A stretch of DNA of 64,000 nucleotides from Geothrix limicola (GTDB taxonomy: Bacteria > Acidobacteriota > Holophagae > Holophagales > Holophagaceae), in contig NZ_BSDE01000007.1 of assembly GCF_030268085.1 (NCBI RefSeq), forward strand, positions 1 through 64,000. The letters are read 5' to 3'. The notes under the pieces are model-generated. The model worked only from the letters and a program-made list of their open reading frames with translations. It had not been told where the DNA came from and did no database searches. The translations under genes and the position numbers were made by a program. Below are positions 26,049 through 41,007 of this stretch, one piece after another (the stretch's first letter is position 1; the number at the start of each line of letters is the position of its first letter).

Positions 26049-29000
26049 CTATTGCAGCGTTCCGGTGAAGACGCCGTGGACGGGCGTCGTTCCCGTGGTC
26101 CTGGGGGTTTCACCACCGAACATCGTTCCCATGTAGGTCTGGTTGCCGGAAGCGTCTGACCCGTAGGAGAAGATCATGTTGTCCCAGTTGAAGGTGACCG
26201 CGAAGACCTTGCCACTCCGGTCTCGCACGATGCTGGACCCACCACTGGTGAACATCATCTGGCTCATGACGGATCGAGGCTCAGCCTGCCAATCGGCATC
26301 CGCGAAGTACCCGGTGAGCTTTCCGTAGGTCGAGGCGTTGGCCGGGTTTGTGTCCACGGTCCACGCGCTCCAGAACGTCATCCACAACATCTGGTCATTC
26401 GCATAGGTGTTGTAGAGGTGGTCCACGCCAGGCAGGGCCGAGAAGGCCAGGCTGTGGTAGCCATCCACCTGCCCAGGAACCAGATAGGCACCGTAGGCAT
26501 CGGGCACGGATTCATTGACGCTCTTGTGAGTCAGGTCGCCGGTGGAGGGATCGACGAGGTAGATGTCGATGGCCGCGTTGGTGGAGGTCATCGGGTCTGA
26601 ACCCGGCCAGTTGAAGTCGGTGCTCCGGGTGAAAAGCATGGTTCCGGCACGGTCGAACACCAGGCTGGTGGGGTTGTAGATCGTCGTGGGGCCGAGGTTG
26701 TTGTTGACGCCCGTGGCGTATTTCGGGGAGGCGTCGGTTCCGGCGGCCGTGAGGGCGCCCGTGGTGGCGTCGATTGCATAGGGCTTGATGACGCTGTGTA
26801 CGGAGTCCGTGGCATAGAGGAACTTGCCGGAGGGATGAATGACGATATCCCCCTGTCCGCGACCGCCCGCGACAACCTGCTGGATCTGGGCCGCCGCAGC
26901 CGTGAGAGCCCCGGTGCTGCCGTCGATGTTGAGGACGGCGATGCCTTCGGCGCAGCCCACGTAGAGGCGCGTGCCATCCGGTGTGCTCGCGGAGCAGTAG
27001 GGCGCGGTGAAGCCTGCGGGGAGCGCAAAGGGAGAGCCGGTGATGGCAGTCAGGACACCCGTGGTGGCGTTGGCCGTATAGGCGCTGATGGTGCCATCGG
27101 TGTTGTTGGCCACGTAGAAGTATTTCTCGTCGAGGGTGGTGGCGATGTGGATGGCGCCATTTCCAGCGGCGATGGGGCTCCCCACCGCTTCGCCGATCAG
27201 GGCGTTGGCGGGGGTGGTGCTGCCGTCGTCGTACATGTAGCCCGTCATGGCATTGCCCGAGAGCGGAGACGCGGCATTCACCGGGTACTGGTAGATGTCG
27301 TTGCTGCCGTTGTTCACCACGTAGTACCACTTGGGCGTATAGGTCTTGACCGTCACGGGAATGGAGGTAGGCGTGGTCACGCCGCCCACCGTCACGTTGA
27401 GGGTGTAGGTGATGTGGCCCGTGGGATAGGTGGTGAGGTCGGGGAAGACGGTCGAGCTGGTCGTACCCAGGACGTTGACGGGCGTGGTGCCATCCGTGAT
27501 CACGGCCGCAGTGGCGCCGGCGCTGAAGGTGTAGGTGAAGGTGACGCCCTCACCATTGGTGATGGCCGTCCGGCTGGCGTTGAAGGTCGGAACGAGGGGC
27601 GTGACCGTCAGAGTTGCAGCGGCGCTGGTGGCATTGGGCTGGGTGCCGTTGCTGACCACGCAGGTGTAGCTGGAGCCGTCATCGGCGAGCGCGACCGCGG
27701 GCGTGGTGTAGCTGGCGCTGTTCCCCCCCACGGGAGCGTTGCCCTTGTACCACTGATAGCTCAGGGTTCCGGGTCCCTTGGCCGTGACATTGAAGGTGGC
27801 CGTCTGGCCTTCCATGACCGATCGGTTGACCGGCTGAGCCGTGATGCCAGGAGAGAGCTGCACCACGACCGTCGCCACGCTGGTCGTCACGGTCGCGGGG
27901 ACCGAGGTCAGGGTGTTGGTCACGTCGCAGGTGTAGTCGCCGGCATCGCCGGCGGCGAGGCTCAGGACCGTGTAGGTCTTCAGTGTGGCCCCGGGAATGG
28001 CGGTGCCGTTCTTCTTCCACTGGTAGCTTTCGCTGCCCGTGAAGGTCGCGGTGACACCCAGATTCAACTGGTCGCCGGGGAAGAAGGTTCCGCCCACGGG
28101 CTGGGCGGTGATGATGGGGAGTCCCACCACGGTGATCTCGGCAGGGTTGCTGGTGGTGGTGGCCGTGGTCCCGTTGAGCGAACTGGTGATGGTGCAGGTG
28201 TAGCTGCCGGCATCCGTCGTTGCGAGTGAGGGAAGGGTGAAGGTGGGGGCGTTGGTTCCGACTGCGGTAGCACCCTTGTTCCACTGGTAGCTGAGGGTGC
28301 TGCCGGTGGCGTGCGTGGGGGTTCCCACGGAAAGGTTCAGGGGCTGCGTAGCCGCGATGGTGGCGTTCGCCGGCTGTGAAGCAGGCGCGATGGCCACGTA
28401 GTTCACGTGGAGGGTGGCCACGCTGCTGGAGGTGGTGCCGCCCACATTGGTCACATCCACATGGATGGCCGTTCCGTCATTGGAGGCGATGGTCGGATCG
28501 GTGGTGTAGGTGGCGCTGGTGGCAGAGGCCTCCTGGGCGGGCGTGTTCCCCTTGAACCACTGGTACGAGGCCGCATTGCTGGCGACGACGCTGAAGGTGG
28601 CCGCATTTCCTGCGACGACGGTTCGATCGGCAGGTTGCGTGGTGATGGCTGGAGCCGGGGTGATCACGGTCAGCGTTTTGGGGGTGGTGGTGGCGGAGGT
28701 GGTGGTCGTGCCCAGGGTGCTGGTCACCACGCAGGTGTAGCTGCCGCTGTCCGAGGCGCTGGCGCTGGTGAGCGGGAAGGTGGCGTTGGTGGCCCCGTTG
28801 ATGGCGGAGCCGGCCTTTTGCCACTGGTAGGTCAGGGTGCCGCTGCCGGAGGCGGCCACCGTGAAGGAGGCCGGTTGCCCCACCGTCACGGAGGCGTCCA
28901 CCGGCTGGGTGGTGATGCTCACGTAATTCACATGCAGCGTGGCATTGGTGCTGGTGACAGCCCCGCCCGCATTGGTCACCGTTACGGCGAACACGGCATT

Positions 29001-29324
29001 GTTGTCGGTCACCGCGGTGGCGGCGGTGGTGTAGGTGGCGGAAGTGCCATTGGAGGAAATGGCCGTTCCGCCCTTGGTCCACTGGTAGGTGGGCGAGCCC
29101 GTGGCAACCACCGAGAAGGTTGCAGGGTTGCCGACGACGACGGTGGCGTCCGCGGGCTGGGAGGTGATGGTCGGAGCCGGGGGGGGCGGGGCGGGCTTGC
29201 TTCCGCCGCCACCGCATGCCGCCAGGGCGGCCAGGACCAGGCCTGTTCCCGTACCCGTGAGCAGCCGCGTGGTGAGGGGTCTCCAGCCTATGTCATAGAG
29301 CATGGAAGGTGGTTTGGGGGTCAT
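26049..29324 (-). CDS. Large surface lipoprotein: Ig-like repeats plus beta-propeller
   Basis: 1091 aa from the ATG at 29324 (AGGAG upstream). The signal peptide ends in a lipobox LAALAAC, so the mature N terminus is lipidated, followed by a Gly/Pro linker. Six Ig-like domains of about 90-100 residues follow, each with a TSQPADATV-type start and a YQWxKG tryptophan strand; a seventh, PKD-like segment comes next. The C-terminal ~420 residues look like a lactonase-type seven-bladed propeller (KYFYVANNTDGTISAYTANA; FLYATDSVHSVIKPYAIDA). Likely a cell-surface adhesive or binding protein. Its own AT-rich upstream region suggests a separate promoter from the protease genes. Confidence 0.85.
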   Translation of the reverse strand: MTPKPPSMLYDIGWRPLTTRLLTGTGTGLVLAALAACGGGGSKPAPPPPAPTITSQPADATVVVGNPATFSVVATGSPTYQWTKGGTAISSNGTSATYTTAATAVTDNNAVFAVTVTNAGGAVTSTNATLHVNYVSITTQPVDASVTVGQPASFTVAASGSGTLTYQWQKAGSAINGATNATFPLTSASASDSGSYTCVVTSTLGTTTTSATTTPKTLTVITPAPAITTQPADRTVVAGNAATFSVVASNAASYQWFKGNTPAQEASATSATYTTDPTIASNDGTAIHVDVTNVGGTTSSSVATLHVNYVAIAPASQPANATIAATQPLNLSVGTPTHATGSTLSYQWNKGATAVGTNAPTFTLPSLATTDAGSYTCTITSSLNGTTATTTSNPAEITVVGLPIITAQPVGGTFFPGDQLNLGVTATFTGSESYQWKKNGTAIPGATLKTYTVLSLAAGDAGDYTCDVTNTLTSVPATVTTSVATVVVQLSPGITAQPVNRSVMEGQTATFNVTAKGPGTLSYQWYKGNAPVGGNSASYTTPAVALADDGSSYTCVVSNGTQPNATSAAATLTVTPLVPTFNASRTAITNGEGVTFTYTFSAGATAAVITDGTTPVNVLGTTSSTVFPDLTTYPTGHITYTLNVTVGGVTTPTSIPVTVKTYTPKWYYVVNNGSNDIYQYPVNAASPLSGNAMTGYMYDDGSTTPANALIGEAVGSPIAAGNGAIHIATTLDEKYFYVANNTDGTISAYTANATTGVLTAITGSPFALPAGFTAPYCSASTPDGTRLYVGCAEGIAVLNIDGSTGALTAAAAQIQQVVAGGRGQGDIVIHPSGKFLYATDSVHSVIKPYAIDATTGALTAAGTDASPKYATGVNNNLGPTTIYNPTSLVFDRAGTMLFTRSTDFNWPGSDPMTSTNAAIDIYLVDPSTGDLTHKSVNESVPDAYGAYLVPGQVDGYHSLAFSALPGVDHLYNTYANDQMLWMTFWSAWTVDTNPANASTYGKLTGYFADADWQAEPRSVMSQMMFTSGGSSIVRDRSGKVFAVTFNWDNMIFSYGSDASGNQTYMGTMFGGETPRTTGTTPVHGVFTGTLQ

Positions 29325-29583
29325 GAGCTCTCCTGTTATGTGAAGACCGGGCAAGGCCCGGAGGGAGGGGGAAGAACAAATTCGACGAAAACGTCAATGT
29401 CTAAAAAAATTCATTTAATTTTAAATATTGTTAAAATATAAATAAATATTTTCAAAAATCGACATTTTGATAATGAATTTGAAGTAGTTCTTACCCAGCT
29501 CTGCCGGTGACAAAGTGATCGGGTGCTGTTTTTTGCTGGTTACTGAGAAGGGGGAATGGGTTCGAGTCTAAGTGATTGAGCCG
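29325..29583 (-). promoter_or_regulatory. AT-rich promoter region of the Ig-repeat lipoprotein gene
   Basis: This 259-bp gap contains the most AT-rich stretch of the window (about 29400-29480). On the minus strand it holds TGTCGATTTTTGAAAATA, with TTGAAA at 29455-29450 as a possible -35 box. Nearly the same sequence lies upstream of the cold-shock gene (46275-46292). A small hairpin CCGGGC-AAG-GCCCGG near 29350 lies in the leader. No -10 box is convincing. Confidence 0.45.
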
Positions 29584-30273
29584 CTATTGGGCTTTAAGCG
29601 TTCCAACCGAGATCTGGATATCCTCCAGGCGGAATTTGTTGAGAACATCTGTCCAATCCACATTAGGTATGGTGGGGATGACGCCAATGTCCTCGGGAAT
29701 GATTCGGGCCCGGACCAGGTTCAGGGGAATGGTCGTACCTGAGGGAAGGGCTGCGGTGGCGGCGCCGAAATCAATGCCGATCTGGCATAGGGGCGCGGTG
29801 AGGGGCTGGGCAGGCTGGGCCCGGTCCTTCTGGAAGATGCCCACCGTGAGCAGCTTTCCGGCGTTCTTGGTGCCGCCGATCAGGATCACCGGCTCATAGA
29901 AATTGGGGTATTTGGTGCTATAGAGGTTGGGGGTCGCCAGCTTGAGCTGAAAGACGCCCGTGTCCTTCAGGTAGGTGCCGTCGGCATATTTGTGGAACTG
30001 GACGGATCCGTCGGAAGCCAGGTTGAAACCCACACCCCGGGCCTTGAGGCCGGCCGGGCCCACGAGGTTGAGCACCAGGTGGGTGGGGCTGCTGGAGGCG
30101 TCCTTCACCAGGGCCCATCCGGAGGTGGAGGGGTTCGTGTAGGCCAGGCCGATCGCGGCTGCGGCGGTGGCAGCCGGCGCCTCGGGAGGGGGTGTGTAGG
30201 CGCCGCCGCAGCCCGTGAAGGATCCGACAAACACCAGAAGCATCAATGGCGTGAGAATGGAATAAATGCGCAT
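29584..30273 (-). CDS. Small lipoprotein, partner of the inactive M4-like protein
   Basis: 229 aa. Lipobox VGSFTGC after a signal peptide. The mature part has no recognised domain but is clearly paralogous to the protein at 33013-33690: shared blocks are SGWxLxK, THLxLxxxGPxGxKxRGxGFNL, DTGVFxLx, KLLTVGIFQKDR, and QISVGTL near the C terminus. The gene starts 9 bases after the M4-like gene, exactly the spacing in the other copy. Likely beta-rich, possibly a chaperone, inhibitor or surface partner of its protease; function unknown. Confidence 0.75.
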   Translation of the reverse strand: MRIYSILTPLMLLVFVGSFTGCGGAYTPPPEAPAATAAAAIGLAYTNPSTSGWALVKDASSSPTHLVLNLVGPAGLKARGVGFNLASDGSVQFHKYADGTYLKDTGVFQLKLATPNLYSTKYPNFYEPVILIGGTKNAGKLLTVGIFQKDRAQPAQPLTAPLCQIGIDFGAATAALPSGTTIPLNLVRARIIPEDIGVIPTIPNVDWTDVLNKFRLEDIQISVGTLKAQ

Positions 30274-30282
30274 GGATGCTCC

Positions 30283-32964
30283 TTAATTGCCGAAGGCCGA
30301 CTTGAAGGCCGCGAGGTTCCACTGGAGCTCGCCCTCGCCGATGCCCGGGAAGCCAACCATGAGGTGGGCGTTGACGCTCAGATAGACGTCGAAAGGGACC
30401 TCGTAGGCCAGGGCCAACATGCCGTAGTCCAGCGCGTCGTTGCTGCCGTCCCCGTCGAAATCGCAGGAGAACACCAGGACCATGCCCTGGGCCCACTGCT
30501 TGGGATCCGCCTTGCTCTTGGCCTGCACGCTGTAGACGTTGAGTGTGGAATCGCGGAGCGGCGACAGGAAGACGCCCTCAGGGGAGATCTGCCCTTGAAC
30601 GCCACCGCCCAAATCCCAGTAGCCGGAGCCGTTGAAGGGGGCCGGGTTGTTGGTCCAGACGACGCCCGTATCCGAGGTGCCGGAGATGTTCACTTTCAAT
30701 TGGCTGGGTTCCCCGAGGGGGACGATGGGGTATCGGCTGCCTCGAGGATTGGGCTCGAAGGGACCGTTAATGCCCAGATCGCTGTTGTCCGGGAAGTTCT
30801 TCATGTCGAACCAGACCCGCACGGGATCGGGCTTCCCATAGGCGCCGCCAATGTTGGCGGCAGCAAAGGCGTTGGTGGTGGCGATCACTTCCGCGCTGCC
30901 GGTTCCGTAGAGATCCGTCGCGGCCTTGATGCAGGCCACGCGCATGCCGAGGCAGCTGATTTCGGCGCTGGTGATGTCTTCCGTGAGGGCCTTGAACAGA
31001 ACCTTGGCCGTCTTTTCAAGCCCGATGCCCGTCATACCCTGGGGCAGGTACTCGCTGTAGGCGGAACTGCTGGAATCGGAGGACGCGAATTCGGACATGA
31101 AGAAGAAGGCGCGATCCATGGGGCCCTCCCCATAATCAGGCCACTCATTGCCCAGAAAGCTGAGGCCGTCATGCCATCCATCGGGGGAGATGCCATCCAG
31201 GCTGGGCTGGAACATCGATGTCGCATAGCCACCATTGGCGTAGTTCTGCCCGATGGTGTAGGTGGGCATGATGACCCGCCGCTGGATCCCATGGAGGCTG
31301 CCCAGGCTCATGAAGGCCTGGCTCATGAGGTTGGCGAATCCACGCTGGACGATCTTTCCTTCAGAGATGCTGGAACTGCTCTGCCCCTGCAGGGTCCACT
31401 CCCAAAGCATGTCGCCCAGGGCCTGACCGATGAGGGTGGGTTCGGCGGCGGAGAGGACGCCATAATCCGGCAGGCCCGAGCCACAGGTGAAGCGGAACGA
31501 GGGTAGGGTTATTTGAAGGTGGGTGACTGGGTCGACACGCCATTGATCGAAGGTTTCGTGAATGACTTGGCCAAGGTAGTACCGGTCATTGACGACAGCG
31601 GTCATGGCCGTGTCCTGGCCATCCAGTCCCTTGCGGTTGAAGGCGTACTTCATGAACTCATAGGCGTTGGTCATGCCGTTCATGGCTTCGGCCGCCGCGG
31701 TCTGGCCGGATACCGAGTAGGCGCCGTGGGCTTTGGTCGCATCCGCGCTGGCCACGAAGTCGGTGCCATCGCCCCAGATGTTGTCCGTGAACGGTACGCC
31801 AGTGGTGGCGGGAACACCCGTCACGAGGTTCGCAGCGACGCCGGCGGCCGGGGTTTCGGAGCCGGAGATGGCATCCATGGTGTAGGGTGTGAAGACATCC
31901 GCCTGGTCCGTGACCACCAGGTTGCCGGAAGGGCGCTGGGTGTTGAGCTGGTAGTGGCCGAACTGGTCGTAGTACCCCATCCGGTCCTGGACGAAGTAGT
32001 TGGCGTGGCTGCCTCGGGTGGTGTCCAGTAGGCCGTAGCCTTTCAAGGCCGGGTCGTAGGTGGTGGGAATGGCCATCTGACCGCTGTACATCGTCCGGCC
32101 ATACCCGATCGCCGGGATCAGGGTGGTGGATGGCGATCCGGGGACCACGGAAGTCTGTGCGGCTTCTGGCGAGATGACGCTGGCCGAAGCGTGCGTGATC
32201 GGCGCGGCTGAACCCGTGATGCCGTGAAAGCCCTTGGCGTAGCTGAAGGGATTCTTGATGCCGGGGCCCGTGGCTTTTCGATCCAGGATGGCGCCCGTAT
32301 CGGCATCCATCATCACGGTGAGGGTGGTGTTGGGAGCACCGTCGCTGCCCAGCAGATCGCAGACGATGCGGTAGCCCCGCACGTGGGCCGTGAGGGGCTG
32401 ATAGGCCTCGGCGCTGCGTAGGGGATCCACCGCGAAGAAACCGCTGGCGGGATCCTTGGCCAGGACCATCTCTCCCATGAGTCGCGTGGGGAAGATGATG
32501 GGTTCCACGGTGGGTGCATGTCCGAACCCGACGGTGGGAGACAGCTTGGCACCGAGGATGTCCAGGGCCTGGGCGGGGCTCAGCTGGGCTTGGCCGGAAG
32601 GGAGGCTGATGCCCTTGGACAACGCGGAGACGGAGATGGACATGGTCCCCTCCGGGCTGACCTTCACCACGACCGAGGATCCCTGGACCCGCGTTCCCTG
32701 ATGAATCTGGTCGAAGCGCGCCACGCACTCGCCCTGGGTGTTGGTGAGGGAATGCCGCAGGACGAATTCATCGTCGCCGCCGAGCCCCAGGCTGGACGCC
32801 TGGCTCTTCAGATAGGCCGCGGCCTGGGCGGCCCGGGCGGTTTCCTGCTGGTTGAGGACTTCGAGCTGGGCCGCCGGCAGTTCGGGGAGGGCCTGGGCGC
32901 AAAGCGTCGCCCCGGCCAGCATCATGGCCAACGCAGTGGCTGGATAGCGCATGCGAAACATCAC
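30283..32964 (-). CDS. Catalytically dead thermolysin-like (M4) paralogue
   Basis: 893 aa with signal peptide (AGATLCAQA). It aligns along its length with the active-looking M4 protein at 33700-36441: FTP propeptide (VARFDQIHQGTRVQGSSVVV), PepSY-like part, and the thermolysin C-terminal half (PSLDGISPDGWHDG, YLPQGMTGIGLEKTAKVLFKALTE, KAATDLYG). The HEMSH zinc motif is replaced by EPTLIGQALG, the NEANSD glutamate by SEGKIVQRG, and the catalytic His region HYSMG by DYGEG. A C-terminal DFDGDGSNDALDYG repeat looks like a calcium-binding half-dockerin. A binding or regulatory role is more likely than proteolysis (inference). Confidence 0.82.
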   Translation of the reverse strand: MMFRMRYPATALAMMLAGATLCAQALPELPAAQLEVLNQQETARAAQAAAYLKSQASSLGLGGDDEFVLRHSLTNTQGECVARFDQIHQGTRVQGSSVVVKVSPEGTMSISVSALSKGISLPSGQAQLSPAQALDILGAKLSPTVGFGHAPTVEPIIFPTRLMGEMVLAKDPASGFFAVDPLRSAEAYQPLTAHVRGYRIVCDLLGSDGAPNTTLTVMMDADTGAILDRKATGPGIKNPFSYAKGFHGITGSAAPITHASASVISPEAAQTSVVPGSPSTTLIPAIGYGRTMYSGQMAIPTTYDPALKGYGLLDTTRGSHANYFVQDRMGYYDQFGHYQLNTQRPSGNLVVTDQADVFTPYTMDAISGSETPAAGVAANLVTGVPATTGVPFTDNIWGDGTDFVASADATKAHGAYSVSGQTAAAEAMNGMTNAYEFMKYAFNRKGLDGQDTAMTAVVNDRYYLGQVIHETFDQWRVDPVTHLQITLPSFRFTCGSGLPDYGVLSAAEPTLIGQALGDMLWEWTLQGQSSSSISEGKIVQRGFANLMSQAFMSLGSLHGIQRRVIMPTYTIGQNYANGGYATSMFQPSLDGISPDGWHDGLSFLGNEWPDYGEGPMDRAFFFMSEFASSDSSSSAYSEYLPQGMTGIGLEKTAKVLFKALTEDITSAEISCLGMRVACIKAATDLYGTGSAEVIATTNAFAAANIGGAYGKPDPVRVWFDMKNFPDNSDLGINGPFEPNPRGSRYPIVPLGEPSQLKVNISGTSDTGVVWTNNPAPFNGSGYWDLGGGVQGQISPEGVFLSPLRDSTLNVYSVQAKSKADPKQWAQGMVLVFSCDFDGDGSNDALDYGMLALAYEVPFDVYLSVNAHLMVGFPGIGEGELQWNLAAFKSAFGN

Positions 32965-33012: not shown

Positions 33013-33690
33013 CTACTTGGTCGTCAGGGTTCCCACCGAGATCTGGACGGGGACGAGGGATGCGCTGTAGTAGTACGCCACGCTGTTCCAGTCGGCGTTG
33101 GGGTCCGTGGGGTCCGCGGGCATGTCGCCGATGAAGGCGGGGATGGCCTTGGCCTTGGTGATGGTCAGCGGAATCACGGTGCCCGGAGGAAGGGCGGCGG
33201 TCTTGGCGGGATCGAAATCGATGGCGATCTGGCACACCGCCTGGCCCAGATCCTGGGCCGGCCAGTACCGATCCTTCTGGAAGATGCCCACCGTGAGGAG
33301 GGTGCCGTTCTTCTTCACGCCACCTGCCAGAAGCGTGGGTTCCACGGGGTAGTTGGCGAAGGTGCTCTGCAGCTTGAAGACGCCGGTGTCACGGACATAG
33401 CCCGCCGCGCTCAGTTTGGCGAAGGCGACGGTGCCATCGGACTGGAGGTTGAATCCAATGCCCCGTCCCTTGGTGCCCACGGGTCCGATCACATCCAGGA
33501 TGAGATGGGTATCCGAGGAGGCGAGGTTCTTCTGGAGGATCCATCCGGATCCGCTGGGATCCTGGTAGGTGAAGCCGGACGAAGCCGGTGCGGCTTGGGG
33601 CCCGGGGGCCGTGGCGGCTCCGCCGCAGGCCAGGAGCAGGACGAGGGACGCCGCCGGAAGGAAGGACTGACAGATCGTTCTCATGCGCAT
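33013..33690 (-). CDS. Small lipoprotein, partner of the M4 protease
   Basis: 225 aa. Lipobox SLVLLLAC, then an Ala/Pro linker. Paralogue of the protein at 29584-30273, sharing the SGWILQK, GRGIGFNLQSDGTVAF, DTGVFKLQ and LLTVGIFQKDR blocks and the C-terminal VQISVGTL. It starts 9 bases after the stop of the active M4 gene and is surely co-translated with it. No known domain. Its fixed pairing with an M4-type gene in both copies argues for a direct partner role. Confidence 0.75.
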   Translation of the reverse strand: MRMRTICQSFLPAASLVLLLACGGAATAPGPQAAPASSGFTYQDPSGSGWILQKNLASSDTHLILDVIGPVGTKGRGIGFNLQSDGTVAFAKLSAAGYVRDTGVFKLQSTFANYPVEPTLLAGGVKKNGTLLTVGIFQKDRYWPAQDLGQAVCQIAIDFDPAKTAALPPGTVIPLTITKAKAIPAFIGDMPADPTDPNADWNSVAYYYSASLVPVQISVGTLTTK

Positions 33691-33699
33691 GGAATGTCC

Positions 33700-36441
33700 T
33701 TACTGGGCGAAGGCGTTCTGGAAGGCTTCGTTGAAGGCCTGGAGCGTGTAGTCGTCGAAGGAATACCCGACGTAGTCGCCGGTGTTGTAGTCGGCCCAGA
33801 GCAGCCCCACGGGCTCGCCGCCAGGGTTCAGGTAGTACGAGACGTTGCCGGGCAGGCCGTAGCTGAGGGCGAAGGCCCCCATGTCCACGGCATCCTGCTC
33901 GCCATCACCATCGGCATCTAGGTGGGCGACGAGGGTGGGGAGGAAACCGAATTCGAGGGGGTCGGCCTTGCTGGTGGCCTGCACCATGCAGAATTTCGGC
34001 CCCTGAAGCGGCGCACGGTAGGTTCCATCGGCATCGAAGGATCCATTGGAGGCAGAGGGCCCCACGGGCTCAGAGCTGCCGTAGATGCCATCGTTGGGAT
34101 AAGGGAAGGCCAGCATGGGCCACCCGGTGGACCAGGTCACGGAGGTGTCCGCCGCATGGCTCACGTTCACGCGAAGCTTGGTGCGCTCGCCCATGGGAAC
34201 GATGGGCACGTAGTAGTAGGTGGGATCGAATCCATAGGGAGAGCCGCTGTACGAGCCCGTCGGCAGGCCGATGTTTCCCAGAGGAGAGGAAGGGTCCACG
34301 AGGTCCCTGGGGAACGTCACGAGAGGGCGCCCCTGACCGTTTGCGGCGGCCCCCACGTTGACGGCGGCCAGCGCGTTCTGCACGGCCGCGAGCTGGGGCG
34401 AGGTGGCGCCGTAGAGATCGGTGGCGGCGGCGATCAGCGGATCGCGCATGGTGAGGATCCCCGTGGAGGGAGTCATGTATTCGGACACAGCCTTGTACCA
34501 GATGCGGGCGGCGGCATCGATGCCGATGCCACTCATGCCCTGCGGCAGGTAGGGGCTGTAGTCGTTCTTGGTGCTGTCTGCGCCGGCGCCCATGCTCAGG
34601 AAGTAGAAGCAGCGGTTGGGCACGCCCATGCTGTAGTGGCCGTCCAGCTGGTTGATGCCGGAATACCAGGAATTGGGGCTGTAGCCATCCAGCGAAGGCT
34701 TGACCATGGAGCGCAGACCCTGGCCTGAAGCCGAGATTTCAGGGGCGATCACCCAGTCCGCCTTGCCCTCGGGAATCTTGTCCAGGGGGTCGGTGGCCGC
34801 GCGCTTGGAGTAGGCTTCCACGCACATGCCCATGATGTCGGAGTTGGCTTCGTTGAGCCCCATGCCTTCGCCGTAGTAGTGGACCGCGGCGGTGAAGTGC
34901 ATCTCGCCGTGGCTCATCTCGTGGCCGCCGATGGTGATGGAGGTGAACTCCTTGAAGGCGTTTGGGTCCGTGCTCCCCTGGTACCAGTTGCCGTCACCGT
35001 AGTGCATCATCAGGTCCACGTAGGAGAAGTGGGCGTTGACGATGGAACCCAGGTTGTCGTGGACCACGGAGATCATGGACGTGTTCTGGCCATCCAGCCC
35101 CAGGCGGCCCAGGACGTTCTTGTACATGTCATAGGTGACCTGCATGGCGGAGTGGGCGCCCACGGCGGCCGTCTGCCCGTTGGCGTCCCCGTAATGGAAT
35201 TCGGCTTCCGTCTTGGGGTAGCGGCTCGGGGAGTAGTTGATGAACGGCGCGTACGGCGAGTTGTAGTTCAATCCGTCGCCCCACTCGTTGGTGGGAGATC
35301 CGGCGCCGGTGGTGCCGTTGGCGCTCCAACTCGTGTCGCTCATCGAATAGGTGTTGTAGTTCGAGGCCCAGAAATAGGGGAAGACGTAGTCGTCGAGGGG
35401 AGGCTGGAAGCCGTGGTACTCGGAGGCATCCCAGAACCAGGTCTGGTTGCCCACGGTTTGGAACACGGGGTGGGGCTGGGTGGCGCGGGTGATGTCCACC
35501 AGGTCATAGCCCGTGCCCAGGGGGGACTGGATGGTGTCGAGGCTCACGAGTCCGCGGTACTGGTCGTGTCCCCAACCCTTGGCAGCCACGGGTGTCGCGC
35601 TGGCGACGAGGGGGCTCGTGATCATGGTCGCCGCACGGGGAGCCTGGAAGGAGGCCTGGGTGCTGACATGGGGCACGCTGGACCGGAGGCGTGCCATGGC
35701 CGCGTAGTCCATGGGTTTGCGAGAGATGGGGCGCTGGGCGGTGAGGCCGGCCATGTCATCCCACTTGCGCAGCACCTGGCCGGAATTCGCATCCACGATG
35801 AAGTGCATCTCCCGGTAGCCGTCCTTGTCATTGCGGAGGACGGCGTCGACCTGGTAGGCCCAGACATAGGCGCTGGTGGGCTTGGGGCCCACGAGGCTGC
35901 CCTCGCGATCAAGGCGCGGGGCGCCGGTCTTGGCATCGGCGGCCAGTTTGAACCCATGGGCGAAGACGGTGGGGAAGATGACGCGCTCGGCCTTGGGCTG
36001 ACCGGCGTAGTCGCCCTGGGGGGCCAGGTTGCGATGGGCGGCGAGGATGGCGTCCTGGTCGGTGAGTTTCACCTGATCGGCGAAACCCAGGCCGGGAGCC
36101 ACGTCGTGGGCCATGAGCGTCACCGTGCCTTCGGGATCGACCCGCACGGTCAGAGAGGTGCCGTAGACTCGGTATCCCAGGTGGGTCTGTTCGTAACGGC
36201 AGATGGTCTGCCCCTGCGCGTTGGTGATGACATTCACTTCCCGGAGCTGGTCCTGTGGCCCCAGGCCCAGGTTCTGGCTGTTCAGGAAGGCCGAGGCTTG
36301 CGCGACGCGCTGCGGCTGCAGCGCTCGATTCGCCTCTACCTGCTGAGCGGAGAGAACGGGGTGGACGATCTGGGCTTCGCCCGAGGCCTGCGCAAGGAAG
36401 AGGGCCAGGGCTGGAACGAGGGGTCTGACCTTGAAACGCAT
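33700..36441 (-). CDS. Secreted thermolysin-like (M4) metalloprotease
   Basis: 913 aa from the ATG at 36441 (GGGAG five bases upstream). Order: signal peptide (ALFLAQASGEAQ); FTP propeptide with CRYEQTHLGYRVYGTSLTV; PepSY-like AYVWAYQVDAVL; M4 catalytic domain with zinc motif HEMSH (about residue 507), third ligand in GLNEANSDIMG and catalytic His in LDGHYSMGVPNR; the helical thermolysin C domain (YLPQGMSGIG, AAATDLYG); a beta-rich region; and a C-terminal DADGDGEQDAVDMG calcium-type repeat. It should be an extracellular or surface endopeptidase. It is preceded by a beta-barrel and an Oar-like transporter in the same operon, suggesting a dedicated export path. Confidence 0.9.
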   Translation of the reverse strand: MRFKVRPLVPALALFLAQASGEAQIVHPVLSAQQVEANRALQPQRVAQASAFLNSQNLGLGPQDQLREVNVITNAQGQTICRYEQTHLGYRVYGTSLTVRVDPEGTVTLMAHDVAPGLGFADQVKLTDQDAILAAHRNLAPQGDYAGQPKAERVIFPTVFAHGFKLAADAKTGAPRLDREGSLVGPKPTSAYVWAYQVDAVLRNDKDGYREMHFIVDANSGQVLRKWDDMAGLTAQRPISRKPMDYAAMARLRSSVPHVSTQASFQAPRAATMITSPLVASATPVAAKGWGHDQYRGLVSLDTIQSPLGTGYDLVDITRATQPHPVFQTVGNQTWFWDASEYHGFQPPLDDYVFPYFWASNYNTYSMSDTSWSANGTTGAGSPTNEWGDGLNYNSPYAPFINYSPSRYPKTEAEFHYGDANGQTAAVGAHSAMQVTYDMYKNVLGRLGLDGQNTSMISVVHDNLGSIVNAHFSYVDLMMHYGDGNWYQGSTDPNAFKEFTSITIGGHEMSHGEMHFTAAVHYYGEGMGLNEANSDIMGMCVEAYSKRAATDPLDKIPEGKADWVIAPEISASGQGLRSMVKPSLDGYSPNSWYSGINQLDGHYSMGVPNRCFYFLSMGAGADSTKNDYSPYLPQGMSGIGIDAAARIWYKAVSEYMTPSTGILTMRDPLIAAATDLYGATSPQLAAVQNALAAVNVGAAANGQGRPLVTFPRDLVDPSSPLGNIGLPTGSYSGSPYGFDPTYYYVPIVPMGERTKLRVNVSHAADTSVTWSTGWPMLAFPYPNDGIYGSSEPVGPSASNGSFDADGTYRAPLQGPKFCMVQATSKADPLEFGFLPTLVAHLDADGDGEQDAVDMGAFALSYGLPGNVSYYLNPGGEPVGLLWADYNTGDYVGYSFDDYTLQAFNEAFQNAFAQ

Positions 36442-36471
36442 TGTTACTCCCAAGGAATGGAATGCCATGAG

Positions 36472-37053
36472 CTAGAAGCGATACCTGGCGCCGACCTGGA
36501 TCCAGGACGGGTTGTAGCCCTGAATGGCCTGGTTGTCGGTGCCCAGCTCGGTCATCTGCAGCATCAGGCTGGTGGAGACCCGATCACTGACCCGGAAATC
36601 GAACCCAAAGCGGGCGCCGAATTTCGCACCCTTCATGGTGCTTTTCGTGTGGTTGCTCGCATCCTGGAAGTCCCAGCGCCAGGCATTCAGCGAGAGTCCC
36701 GCGACCATGGACACCCGATTGATTCCCGTGGGGGCGAAGACATCCGCCGCGCCTTGGAATCCCAAGAGGGAGTTCTTCTGGTAGTCCACTTCCTTGCCGG
36801 GCAGATGGTTGACGGACACAGAAAGCCGAAAGGGAACGGTGGTGTTCCGGATCTGCGAGCTGTAGCCGAATTCGGCGGTGACGCCACCCAATCCCGAGGC
36901 ATGGGTGATGGTCTTCAAGGTGTCGAGGGGCATGACCACGTTGAGCCCAGCGTCGAAGGCTGAAGACGCGGGCGAAGGTGCCTGGGCGCTGAGGCAGGTG
37001 CCTCCGGCCAAGGTGAGCGCGGCCAACCTCATGAGGTGATTTCTGCTGAACAT
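36472..37053 (-). CDS. Small outer-membrane beta-barrel protein
   Basis: 193 aa. Signal peptide ending LSAQA, then alternating amphipathic strands (VTAEFGYSSQIRNTTVPFRLSVSVN; KFGARFGFDFRVSDRVSTSLMLQMTEL) and a terminal VGARYRF, the aromatic end recognised by the BAM machinery. About eight strands. It lies 30 bases before the M4 protease and 21 bases after the Oar-like transporter. Similar in type to the barrel at 40273-41007. No enzyme motif; a structural or accessory pore is likely. Confidence 0.72.
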   Translation of the reverse strand: MFSRNHLMRLAALTLAGGTCLSAQAPSPASSAFDAGLNVVMPLDTLKTITHASGLGGVTAEFGYSSQIRNTTVPFRLSVSVNHLPGKEVDYQKNSLLGFQGAADVFAPTGINRVSMVAGLSLNAWRWDFQDASNHTKSTMKGAKFGARFGFDFRVSDRVSTSLMLQMTELGTDNQAIQGYNPSWIQVGARYRF

Positions 37054-37074
37054 GATTTCTCCCGATGAGGACGA

Positions 37075-40000
37075 CTAGAACCGCATGCCCAGGCTGGCGC
37101 CCACGGATCGGCCTGCGATCCAGTAGTTGGCCTCCTTGGGATTCGCTCCGCCAAAGGTTCCGGAGGACGTGGTGTTCAAGAAGAGATGGTTCGCGCCGTA
37201 GGGCAACGAGGCTGTGGCGGTGGAGTAGGTGCCCTGTTCCATCTGGTTGAAGACGTTGTTGATTTGAAGATCGCCGATGAGCTGGAGGGTCTTGAAGCCC
37301 AGGGGAATCCGGAAGGAGACCTTCACATCCACCTGGTACTGATCGTTGTAGGTGTACTGCCCCCGGCCGCCGTAGTACTGGGTGTAGGTGGCCGGGGCCG
37401 GCGGCGCGTTGGAGATGTTGGGCATCGGCCCGCCGGCGTTCTCGCCCAGGGGAGCGGCATAGGCCGCGGACCAGTTGTTGCCGCTGTCGTAGCGCACCAG
37501 CGCGGAATAGGAGATCCTGCCCTTGTCCAGGGGCCGTTCCAGCGAGAAGTTCAGGCGGACATGATGCGTCTGATCGGAATTGAGAGGGCCGGTGGGCGCG
37601 ATGTCTTCGTTGGTCTTCCCCAGGTTCTGGATGAGGAAGGTGCGATTGCCGTAGTAGCCGGGAATGCTGTTGTCGCGGAAGGTGGAATAGGGATTGTCGC
37701 CGCCGTTGCTGTTCCCCGTGAGCCGGCCGTAGGTGTAGGTTCCGTTCAGGGTCAGGGCGGAGGTGATCCTTTGGAAGATCTCCACTTCGAGGGCCTGGTA
37801 GCGACGGATGAGATCGTCGGAGTTGAAGACGTGGACCGTCGAAGCCAGCTTGTCGGCGAGGCCAGAATGGCTGGGATCCGAAATCGTCACCAGCTGGCTC
37901 GGGGTGTAGTCGGAACTGAAGGCCCAGTCCTTCTTCCAGGCCCGGCTCACGTAGGTGAAGCGCATGTAGTTGCCGCTCGCGAAGCTGGCGCGGTAGGTCA
38001 GGGTGGCTTCGTCCAGGTAGGGGGACTTCAGGTGTGGATCGAGGATGTAGCTCTTGGAATTGTCGGAGAAGCCGTAGGCTGTCGTGGGGCCGAGGCCGTA
38101 GTTGCTCAGGTAGGTGTTGGAGGCGGTGTAATTCCTCGGATCGATGAGCTGGGCGTAGGTGAGCCAACGCACGGCGTGGGCGGGATCGGAGTAGGGGTCG
38201 GGTTGGCCCGGGATGCCGGAGAACCCGTAGCTGACTTCCTTGCTGGTGGCTTCGGTGATGAAGGCCGCCGTGAACCCGGAGGTGAAGTCGCCCTGGAACC
38301 GGGCGGCCGTGAGGGTGAACACGTGATGGCTGTCGCCCTTGACGTCCCAGCGCAGCTGGAAACGCGGGGAGAGATCGGAGGCCTTGGCCAGGGTCTTTCC
38401 CGTGGTGTCGATGACGTTGATGGCATCGAAGCGAAGCCCGACCATCATGCCCCAGTGGTTGTTGATGGTCAGGCTGTCGTTGGCATACAGGGAGGAGGTG
38501 GTGTTCTTGGTGATGCCGTCCTGGCCGAAGTACTGGAACATCGTCGGGGCCAGGCCGGTGTTGCCCGAGGAGCTCTGGCCGAGCTGGTTGTAATAGGGCC
38601 AGATGATGGCGGGGAACAGCCAATCCCGGCTGGCGGCGTTGTAGTAGGCGCCCCCCACGCGGAAGGCGCGGTTATCGGCGCCGATCTGACTCTGCGTGGT
38701 GCGGTCGGCCTGGTAGTACTCCGCGCCGAAATCGATCTCGTGCTGTCCGCCAGGAAGATCCCGGAAGAGCTTCAAGTTGAGATTTCCGCTCGTGTTGTTC
38801 CGCTTGTCGGGCCGGGGCGTGGTGCCCATGCCGAAGGGCAGGCCCACGGAGTACCAGTAGTGGTCGTTGGGGGCGATATCATCCAGCCACAGGTTCACGG
38901 GGTTGCTGCTGAACTTCGGATCGCCCGTGGGGAAGATGGCCTGCGATCGGTAGCGGTTGACGCGGCCCCCCAGGAAGGTGGCTTCGCCCAGAATGCCGCG
39001 GTAGTTGAGCCCCCAGGCGGAGCGCTTCTCTTCTTGAGTGCCCAGTGCTTCCACCCGGATCACGCCGACGCCGGGATCCACGTTGGTGATCTTGTTGCCC
39101 GAGCCGACGTAGCTGAGATCCACCGAGTGGTTCGCGTTCAGCGCGCCGGTGACCTTGGCTTCGAAGTAGTTGGAGGAATACCCCTGGGTGTAGGGCTTGG
39201 CGTCGGTGAGGAAACTTGCGAAGGCGTAACCGGACGGGACGCCATTGGCCACGGCCGCGTCGATCTGGGGATCGCCCGTCCGCATGGGGCCGCGGGCGAG
39301 GGGATAGGCCGCGCCGATCTCATTGCTGCTGGTGGCCGAAGGCGTGAGGATGGTGCCGATGGAGAACCAGATCCGATCCTTGACGATGGGGCCCGAGGCC
39401 GTGACATCGAAGGTGCGGCTGAGGTTGTCGCTGATCTGATGGGGCGTGTCCTTGGTGTAGGGATTCCTGGAATTCCAGGTGGGGCGGCTCAGATGGGCGC
39501 GGATGCTCCCTTCGAAATCATTGCCTCCGGACTTGGTCACCACGTTCACCTGGCCGCCCAGGGCCCGGCCATTGCGGGCATTCAGGGGGGAGAGCACCAC
39601 CTGGACGTCGGCGATGTTGTCTTCGATGACCCAAGTGCCTACCTGTGCGCCCTGGAGGTCATCCTTGATGTCGGTGCCGTTGATGCGGTACAGCGTGTTC
39701 TGGGTGGCACCGCCCCGCACGCTGTAGCCGCCGCCGGAAGTGCCGGCCACGCCTGCGGAGAGGTCGGCGGCGCCTTCGAAGCCGCGGTCGAGCCCCGAGA
39801 GGGTATCCAGCACTTCGGCGGAGAAGTTCATGGAGGTCTTGGTGCTGGCCTTGTCGGCCTCGGCGCCTTCAGCCACCACTTCGACCACCATGCCGGCCTT
39901 CGAGATGGGCTTGAGCACCAGGTCCTGGCGCACGGCCGTGCCGATACCTACGCGAACATCGTGGGCCTCGCTGCCCACGAACTCATCCTTAAAAACCTGA

Positions 40001-40242
40001 ACCTTGTAGTTGCCTACGGGCAGCAGGGGGGCACGCCACTCTCCGTTCGCATCCGAAAGAACGGTGCGGGGTGTGAACAACGCGGGTGAACTCAGGATCA
40101 CCTTCGCTCCGGGGATCGGTTTTCCGCTGGAATCCTTCACCTGGCCAGCCAGGGCTCCTGTCGTCGTCTGGCCCACCAGGGCGCAGCCCGCAGCAAGCGT
40201 CAGGCCCAGGGAGGACAACCGCATCGCAGATCTCATTCGCAT
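37075..40242 (-). CDS. Oar-like TonB-dependent transporter with carboxypeptidase-regulatory domain
   Basis: 1055 aa. Signal peptide, then a CarboxypepD-regulatory/Ig-like domain (GALAGQVKDSSGKPIPGAKVILSS ... LPVGNYKVQVFKDEF, about 28-110). The plug domain follows (GYSVRGGATQNTLYRINGTD; VQVVLSPLNARNGRALGGQVNVVTKSGGN, about 140-245), then a long barrel ending YWIAGRSVGASLGMRF. This is the layout of Oar proteins. In Myxococcus xanthus an Oar transporter is needed to export the protease PopC, so together with the adjacent M4 protease a role in protein export is plausible. Polymer import is the alternative. Central gene of a tightly spaced operon. Confidence 0.9.
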   Translation of the reverse strand: MRMRSAMRLSSLGLTLAAGCALVGQTTTGALAGQVKDSSGKPIPGAKVILSSPALFTPRTVLSDANGEWRAPLLPVGNYKVQVFKDEFVGSEAHDVRVGIGTAVRQDLVLKPISKAGMVVEVVAEGAEADKASTKTSMNFSAEVLDTLSGLDRGFEGAADLSAGVAGTSGGGYSVRGGATQNTLYRINGTDIKDDLQGAQVGTWVIEDNIADVQVVLSPLNARNGRALGGQVNVVTKSGGNDFEGSIRAHLSRPTWNSRNPYTKDTPHQISDNLSRTFDVTASGPIVKDRIWFSIGTILTPSATSSNEIGAAYPLARGPMRTGDPQIDAAVANGVPSGYAFASFLTDAKPYTQGYSSNYFEAKVTGALNANHSVDLSYVGSGNKITNVDPGVGVIRVEALGTQEEKRSAWGLNYRGILGEATFLGGRVNRYRSQAIFPTGDPKFSSNPVNLWLDDIAPNDHYWYSVGLPFGMGTTPRPDKRNNTSGNLNLKLFRDLPGGQHEIDFGAEYYQADRTTQSQIGADNRAFRVGGAYYNAASRDWLFPAIIWPYYNQLGQSSSGNTGLAPTMFQYFGQDGITKNTTSSLYANDSLTINNHWGMMVGLRFDAINVIDTTGKTLAKASDLSPRFQLRWDVKGDSHHVFTLTAARFQGDFTSGFTAAFITEATSKEVSYGFSGIPGQPDPYSDPAHAVRWLTYAQLIDPRNYTASNTYLSNYGLGPTTAYGFSDNSKSYILDPHLKSPYLDEATLTYRASFASGNYMRFTYVSRAWKKDWAFSSDYTPSQLVTISDPSHSGLADKLASTVHVFNSDDLIRRYQALEVEIFQRITSALTLNGTYTYGRLTGNSNGGDNPYSTFRDNSIPGYYGNRTFLIQNLGKTNEDIAPTGPLNSDQTHHVRLNFSLERPLDKGRISYSALVRYDSGNNWSAAYAAPLGENAGGPMPNISNAPPAPATYTQYYGGRGQYTYNDQYQVDVKVSFRIPLGFKTLQLIGDLQINNVFNQMEQGTYSTATASLPYGANHLFLNTTSSGTFGGANPKEANYWIAGRSVGASLGMRF

Positions 40243-40272
40243 TTCCGTGTCTCCAATTGGGTGCGGCCAGGG

Positions 40273-41007
40273 TTAGAAGCGGAGGGTGTAGCCGAACTCG
40301 AGGTGGGGGACGGAACGCTTGCGGACGATCACGCTGTCTTTCGCCGTGTGGCCACCCAGCTCGGGGGATGAAGCGGTTCCGAGCACGGTGCCGGCCACGT
40401 GCTGGTAGTTGGCGGAGGAGTACCCCAGGGAGATGACGTTCAGTTCGATGGATTGCCTGGCGTCGATGGCATAGCCCACCCCGACGAAGGGGCTGAGGGG
40501 CACGGTGGTCTTGGTGACGATGCCGTTGTAGGTGTCTTCGTAGCGGACGCCATCGGTGACATCGCCGATGTACTCCTGCCTGAACTTGGCCCCTCCTACC
40601 TGGACGCCCAGGCGCCAGGACCATTCACTGCCGGTGAGGCGGCGCTCGAAACTGGCCCTCAGGGTCAGACCACCCACCTGCGACTTGCGACTGTCCACGG
40701 ATTGGGAGGGATCCAGGGTGGCCCCCACGGCCACCGGCATGGCAGAAAGGTCCGTATTGGTCTGATTGCCGGGCTTGTATTGATAACCAAGCTCCAGCCC
40801 GAAGCGCCCGGCGGGGCTGACGTACCCGAAATCGAAGCCCAATCCCAGGGTTCTCCGATCGAGATGATCCTCCTGGTTGTTGCTGAGTCCGTAACCGGTC
40901 CTGAGCTTGAAAGCCCCATCGAACCCGGCATCCTGGGCAGCGGCAGAAGTCGCCGTAAGGGCCATGATGGCCAGCCACCTTCCCAAATCGTTACGCATGT
41001 ATGCCAT
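40273..41007 (-). CDS. Outer-membrane beta-barrel protein
   Basis: 244 aa. Signal peptide (TATSAAAQ), then regular beta strands (TLGLGFDFGYVSPAGRFGLELGYQYKPG; LTLRASFERRLTGSEWSWRLGVQVGG; HLEFGYTLRF) with a terminal Phe. Probably an 8- to 10-stranded barrel. First gene of the tight part of the operon, 30 bases before the Oar-like transporter. AGGA lies upstream of the start. No specific family recognised. Confidence 0.7.
   Translation of the reverse strand: MAYMRNDLGRWLAIMALTATSAAAQDAGFDGAFKLRTGYGLSNNQEDHLDRRTLGLGFDFGYVSPAGRFGLELGYQYKPGNQTNTDLSAMPVAVGATLDPSQSVDSRKSQVGGLTLRASFERRLTGSEWSWRLGVQVGGAKFRQEYIGDVTDGVRYEDTYNGIVTKTTVPLSPFVGVGYAIDARQSIELNVISLGYSSANYQHVAGTVLGTASSPELGGHTAKDSVIVRKRSVPHLEFGYTLRF

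Follow-up and report, generated by a model that had tools for sequence, protein, structure and literature searches.

A thermolysin-family (M4) homologue without zinc or catalytic residues beside its active sister in Geothrix limicola, each paired with a predicted cohesin lipoprotein

A 64,000-nucleotide stretch of the genome of Geothrix limicola, a bacterium of the Holophagaceae in the Acidobacteriota (contig NZ_BSDE01000007.1, positions 1 to 64,000, hereafter the window) encodes on its minus strand an 893-residue M4 homologue (30283..32964, hereafter the dead copy), recognised by profile, alignment and model, in whose sequence all zinc and catalytic positions are replaced. The gene of a 229-residue lipoprotein with a predicted cohesin fold (29584..30273, minus strand) starts 9 bp downstream of it. 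Two further genes of the same strand encode an active M4 paralogue of 922 residues with the motifs HEMSH and NEANSD, an Ig-like domain and a dockerin-like tail (33700..36468), and, following it, a cohesin-type lipoprotein of 225 residues (33013..33690). Because the two M4 proteins are 30% identical and the two lipoproteins 48% identical, the pair formed by an M4 protein and a lipoprotein is present in two copies. The explanation to which we give an even chance is that the dead copy is a pseudopeptidase issued from a tandem duplication and kept beside its active sister as a surface-tethered, non-catalytic binding subunit.

The dead-copy frame is open over its 893 codons without any stop, as had been noticed from the sequence alone; it starts with GTG, preceded by AGGAG (a strong Shine-Dalgarno), and its GC3 of 0.82 is normal and coding-like. 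It aligns end to end with the active copy (30% identity, 917 columns, 290 bits). Using Pfam, Peptidase_M4_C passed the cut-off (9e-10), Peptidase_M4 (9e-4) and FTP remaining both under it. A profile of the active family scored the annotated frame at E 5e-137 and the next forward frame at 0.6; as neither of the other two forward frames matches the family, a compensated frameshift behind the changed core was ruled out. The protein comprises an N-terminal signal peptide, an FTP/PepSY propeptide (residues about 30-232), a linker (233-280), a thermolysin-fold domain devoid of zinc ligands and catalytic residues (281-706) and an Ig-like domain (713-833), the latter two delineated on the model, and a dockerin-like tail (835-893, DNA 30283..30483, minus strand). 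The propeptide, with 16/18 conserved positions kept, and the C-terminal domain are retained, as the sequence-only reading had it.

Residues were compared in alignments of the dead and active copies with up to 24 homologues (thermolysin numbering in brackets). At the zinc and catalytic HExxH motif, H516 (H142), E517 (E143) and H520 (H146) of the active copy are replaced by Q514, A515 and D518, GHEMSHG being aligned with GQALGDM. The zinc-binding Glu E540 (E166) is replaced by R541 and D544 (D170) by N545, with NEANSD opposite IVQRGFAN. Y531 (Y157) has become a serine and H611 (H231) faces E607 in a region where LDGHYSMG sits opposite NEWPDYGEG, the exact partner being uncertain at a 3-residue insertion. 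The equivalents of N112, A113, R203 and D226 are lost too (H482, L483, T582 and G605). The loss of every catalytic residue, first proposed from an alignment by eye, is thus real, and the motif partners given at that time are corrected to those listed here. Zinc ligands located elsewhere in the protein had been named beforehand as the observation that would speak against the proposal; a scan of the whole protein found no HExxH, HxxEH, HxxH or HxxxH, and no alternative zinc motif. The sole HE, at H469 (HETFD), belongs to a low-confidence loop with a pLDDT below 50. Judged from these alignments, the dead copy is outside the active M4 peptidases, all its zinc and catalytic positions being replaced; by its family profile and thermolysin fold, it is an M4 homologue of the non-peptidase kind.

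An AlphaFold2 model of the dead copy was computed from 22 family sequences (mean pLDDT 69.5, pTM 0.79). Its domain 281-706 matched thermolysin 4tnl with a Z of 22.4 and an rmsd of 2.1 over 296 residues, and thermolysin and other M4 enzymes over 296-307 residues at Z 22. The comparison with thermolysin that had been called for therefore predicts a retained thermolysin fold, although the model shows compatibility with this fold rather than proof of it because the underlying alignment includes active relatives. The model retains the helices on which HExxH and the zinc Glu would sit (509-525 and 535-555), so that a core swapped for an unrelated domain is not supported.

HExxH and the zinc Glu are present in each of the 51 other distinct homologues, from the family and its surroundings, whose core could be assessed, and the dead copy is the sole dead member among the homologues examined; the few other ORFs without HExxH are partial or split. 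Some M4 homologues are split into two ORFs with an intact HExxH part (L035:759-3130, L068:907-3439 and L093:1206-3691), possibly through frameshifts or assembly errors. No orthologue of the dead copy was detected in the family (77 genomes), the class (93) or a sample of the phylum (396), and a contig search with its sequence returned no relative. The M4-cohesin unit itself, often as tandem pairs, is found in further species of the genus and of the family, and both copies are active in every other tandem pair found. The tree suggests several independent origins of such pairs (L036:8809-14987, L097:5279-12717, L031-L034). The M4-dockerin and cohesin-lipoprotein unit is also carried by a few MAGs whose labels assign them to Myxococcaceae or Proteobacteria (Beta- and Gammaproteobacteria; loci L092, L093, L094, L097 and L098), by horizontal transfer or in mis-binned contigs.

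The tree groups the two window copies, dead and active, as sisters with a support of 98/96, a placement that carries a long-branch caution, the dead row having the longest end branch (1.33 vs 0.72 for the active copy). Their sister relationship is backed by a linker of about 45 residues following the propeptide (residues 233-280 in the dead copy, 246-295 in the active copy), which is common to both and absent from the other rows, and by the lipoprotein pair, whose tree agrees with weak support. Third-base identity between the two copies is 47% vs 44% expected; synonymous sites are too saturated for a dN/dS between them. The duplication is thus lineage-specific, since the window copies are sisters, but old, since their synonymous sites are saturated.

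An intact frame by itself does not prove selection; the sequence-only reading had taken it, with the loss of all sites, to point to a selected non-enzymatic role. Regional constraint was calculated on the positions at which 90% or more of the active proteins agree. The dead copy keeps 21/48 of them in the catalytic core vs 50/59 (85%) elsewhere (Fisher p = 1.1e-5), core retention being 0.86 or higher in every other member. Branch lengths for the dead and active copies are respectively 1.28 and 0.68 in the N-terminal part, 2.17 and 0.76 in the core, 0.77 and 0.47 at the end of the helical domain, and 1.47 and 0.93 in the Ig and dockerin domains. All regions are accelerated and, as the dead branch is 1.6-1.9 times longer than that of the active copy even outside the core, relaxation contributes and may be ongoing. 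The cohesin gene of the dead copy is not accelerated, the end branches of the two cohesins being 0.50 and 0.51. Random mutation of the dead-copy gene yielded 0.03-0.05 nonsense per missense change, so that the dead branch, with an excess of ~480 replacements (0.61 x 782 columns), would have acquired about 15-23 stops if unconstrained; 0 are observed. Frame, regional constraint and GC3 favour a maintained protein. A pseudopeptidase is defined by catalytic residues lost from a maintained gene; here the loss is shown, and maintenance is supported by these features in place of a dN/dS, since the dead copy is orthologue-free in the genomes searched. The view that the gene encodes a dead homologue rather than a pseudogene is supported. 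Selection for a non-enzymatic role holds in part: fold, propeptide, Ig domain, first calcium loop and cohesin partner are kept against a selective loss of the core, with a share of relaxation.

What had been described as a calcium-type repeat is, according to profile comparisons, a dockerin. The tails of 20 family members, taken as a profile, matched the Pfam-recognised dockerins at E 9.4e-7 over 54 columns, with a score of 35, whereas 50 column-shuffled controls reached 16 at most. In the PDB, the sequence that this profile matches best is that of a genuine dockerin (2vn5_B, E 0.0012). Searching the window proteins themselves with Pfam Dockerin_1 gave no match at E up to 1. The first calcium loop of the dead copy is intact (D835, D837, D839, D843 and D846) and its region keeps 7/7 conserved positions; the second loop is degenerate throughout the family and further eroded in the dead copy (GEGEL). 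The mean identity of the dockerin region to other members is 0.26 for the dead copy vs 0.40 for the active copy.

The lipoproteins matched no Pfam family and no PDB sequence in profile searches. The lipoprotein model (pLDDT 82), searched with Foldseek and VIA-align, retrieved cohesins as 49 of the 50 best entries, the best cohesin match having a Z of 11.7 over 142 residues with an rmsd of 2.9; the neighbouring lipoprotein is thus predicted to adopt the cohesin jelly-roll fold. Each lipoprotein carries one cohesin, and not the several per protein that characterise a scaffoldin; three such lipoprotein genes are present in the host genome. At other Holophagaceae loci, all of the tested large proteins beside such lipoproteins (7/7) carry Pfam Dockerin_1, 6 of them above the cut-off. 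The tail profile, the cohesin fold and these Dockerin_1 neighbours together define a unit made of a secreted dockerin-bearing protein and its own single-cohesin lipoprotein. From homology and gene pairing, we infer that the cohesin binds the dockerin. Pfam-unrecognised single-cohesin lipoproteins (29584-30273, 33013-33690 and G000:C2:160347-160916), each adjoining a dockerin-bearing secreted protein, occur across Holophagaceae; their partners are M4 proteases, BNR/sortilin-like proteins and NPCBM proteins, and they apparently form with them a one-to-one tethering system.

The two units belong to a same-strand run of seven genes (41007 -> 29584) with intergenic gaps of 3-48 bp. Its first gene encodes an outer-membrane protein (40273-41007, minus strand), followed by an Oar-like TonB-dependent receptor with CarboxypepD_reg and plug domains (37075..40242, minus strand) and, after a 21 bp gap, by a small outer-membrane-type protein (36472..37053, minus strand) lying 3 bp upstream of the active M4 gene. 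A scan for promoters and terminators between 29000 and 41300 found sites no more frequent than in shuffled sequence, and the operon structure is consequently read from gene spacing. The receptor is a possible operon member, and the small outer-membrane-type protein possibly another. In other genomes, neither the TonB receptor nor the outer-membrane-type protein is conserved beside the M4-cohesin unit; they were ruled out as parts of the module, whose neighbourhood elsewhere does without them. The receptor and the two outer-membrane-type proteins (36472-41007), spaced by 3-30 bp directly upstream of the protease genes, could be an export or uptake partner. On the other side of the run, 229 bp downstream and on the same strand, 26049-29354 encodes a big putative lipoprotein, in which six Ig domains are combined with a lactonase-like beta-propeller.

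In the explanation that we favour, an ancestral unit composed of an M4 protease with Ig and dockerin domains and of a cohesin lipoprotein underwent a tandem duplication in this lineage. One duplicate remained an active protease; the other lost its whole zinc site and the chemistry of its catalytic cleft and would have stayed a folded, secreted pseudopeptidase. It is likely that the cell still produces the dead copy and anchors it to its surface, where it would serve a non-enzymatic purpose. Its dockerin would dock onto the lipid-anchored cohesin at the outer membrane, beside the active copy, as homology to dockerins and cohesins and the gene pairing suggest. The remodelled cleft would most likely bind a protein or peptide, either a captured substrate or a partner, without cutting it, since pseudopeptidases generally behave so.

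It is possible, though doubtful, that the dead copy is instead a redundant duplicate under relaxed selection, which lost its activity and is heading to a pseudogene, its frame being still open either through chance or owing to a recent loss. The longer dead branch (1.33 vs 0.72 overall, and also outside the core), the degenerate second dockerin loop and the absence of the dead copy from every other genome searched would fit such a fate. However, a core so heavily changed means that activity was not lost recently, and despite this the frame has stayed open; a gene so abandoned is difficult to reconcile with the 85% of conserved non-core positions kept, the coding-like GC3 and the unaccelerated cohesin gene. 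A remodelled cleft with a new enzymatic activity receives hardly any credit from us: the cleft diverged far beyond the rest of the protein, which positive selection could also cause, but it displays no recognisable metal or catalytic motif and no homologue has such an activity. Nor is it at all likely that the dead copy serves as a decoy, whether it draws off protease inhibitors or proteins that target the surface protease. A surface-anchored homologue of retained overall fold would suit this role, but the cleft surface seen by inhibitors should then stay, and the changes at N112, A113, Y157, R203 and H231 affect substrate-contact residues too, making a cleft-mimicking decoy less likely.

The most interesting alternative, which we nevertheless regard as unlikely, is a regulator of the active copy. 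The dead propeptide and pseudo-catalytic domain would pair with the active protease and control its maturation or activity, acting as a chaperone, a propeptide titrator or a hetero-complex partner as alpha-MPP does for beta-MPP. Inactive and active M16B homologues from a prokaryotic two-gene operon are on record (PMC11266112). In the window, the gene pair lies within a single same-strand run with 9-48 bp gaps, and the propeptide keeps its 16/18 positions. Against a regulator, all the other tandem pairs found are made up of two active genes, and no M4 protease is known to require a partner. More specific, and improbable, is an obligate partnership in which an active and an inactive M4 protein, each on one of two neighbouring cohesin lipoproteins in the outer membrane, work together, the inactive one handing substrate to its live sister or controlling it; if true, dockerin-cohesin tethering would have produced at the surface a counterpart of the alpha/beta mitochondrial processing peptidase.

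Compared with thermolysin family M4 peptidases having an FTP/PepSY propeptide, of which its sister is a normal member, the dead copy shares the full fold, the propeptide and the C-terminal helical domain, but lacks zinc ligands and catalytic residues and bears Ig-like and dockerin-like C-terminal domains. A 2024 review of pseudometallopeptidases covers, in its available text, cases from M1, M12, M13, M14, M15, M16, M24 and M41; this text does not mention thermolysin and contains no M4 case (PMC11266112). Among those it describes (M12 ADAMs, M14, M13 Goe, M16B alpha-MPP), the fold is kept, the catalytic residues are lost and a protein-binding role is probable, as for the dead copy, and M16B likewise pairs an inactive homologue with an active one; unlike them, the dead copy is secreted and probably dockerin-tethered, and its role is a prediction (PMC11266112). 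A literature search combining 'pseudoprotease' and 'thermolysin' found no paper, nor did one combining cohesin, dockerin, Acidobacteria and protease. These negatives bound the novelty of an M4 pseudopeptidase but do not prove it, since for many families unstudied non-peptidase homologues are on file in peptidase databases.

Cohesin and dockerin modules also exist outside cellulosomes (Peer et al. 2009, cited in PMC9012536) and, as in the window, associate a secreted dockerin protein with a cohesin on another protein outside cellulose degradation. The window unit differs by its one cohesin per lipoprotein, encoded next to the dockerin protein and too divergent for Pfam, and by the absence of a scaffoldin. 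The locus also recalls the Oar-PopC protease export of Myxococcus (PMC6434023), an Oar-like TonB-dependent receptor being located upstream of a secreted protease. In contrast, the window receptor is not conserved beside the M4-cohesin unit elsewhere, and the resemblance therefore shows no functional link. PopC is not known as an M4 enzyme.

Good documentation exists for pseudopeptidases of eukaryotic families; the window gives a clear M4 case next to an active sister, and the adjoining of the sister copies makes dead and active proteins directly comparable. The locus also exposes a probable cohesin-dockerin tethering pair, whose lipoproteins escape Pfam, in bacteria that are not known to make cellulosomes. 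Such a pair would offer a simple way of anchoring proteases, among other proteins, to the surface of a Gram-negative cell, and the tethering makes the function of the dead copy testable by pull-down.
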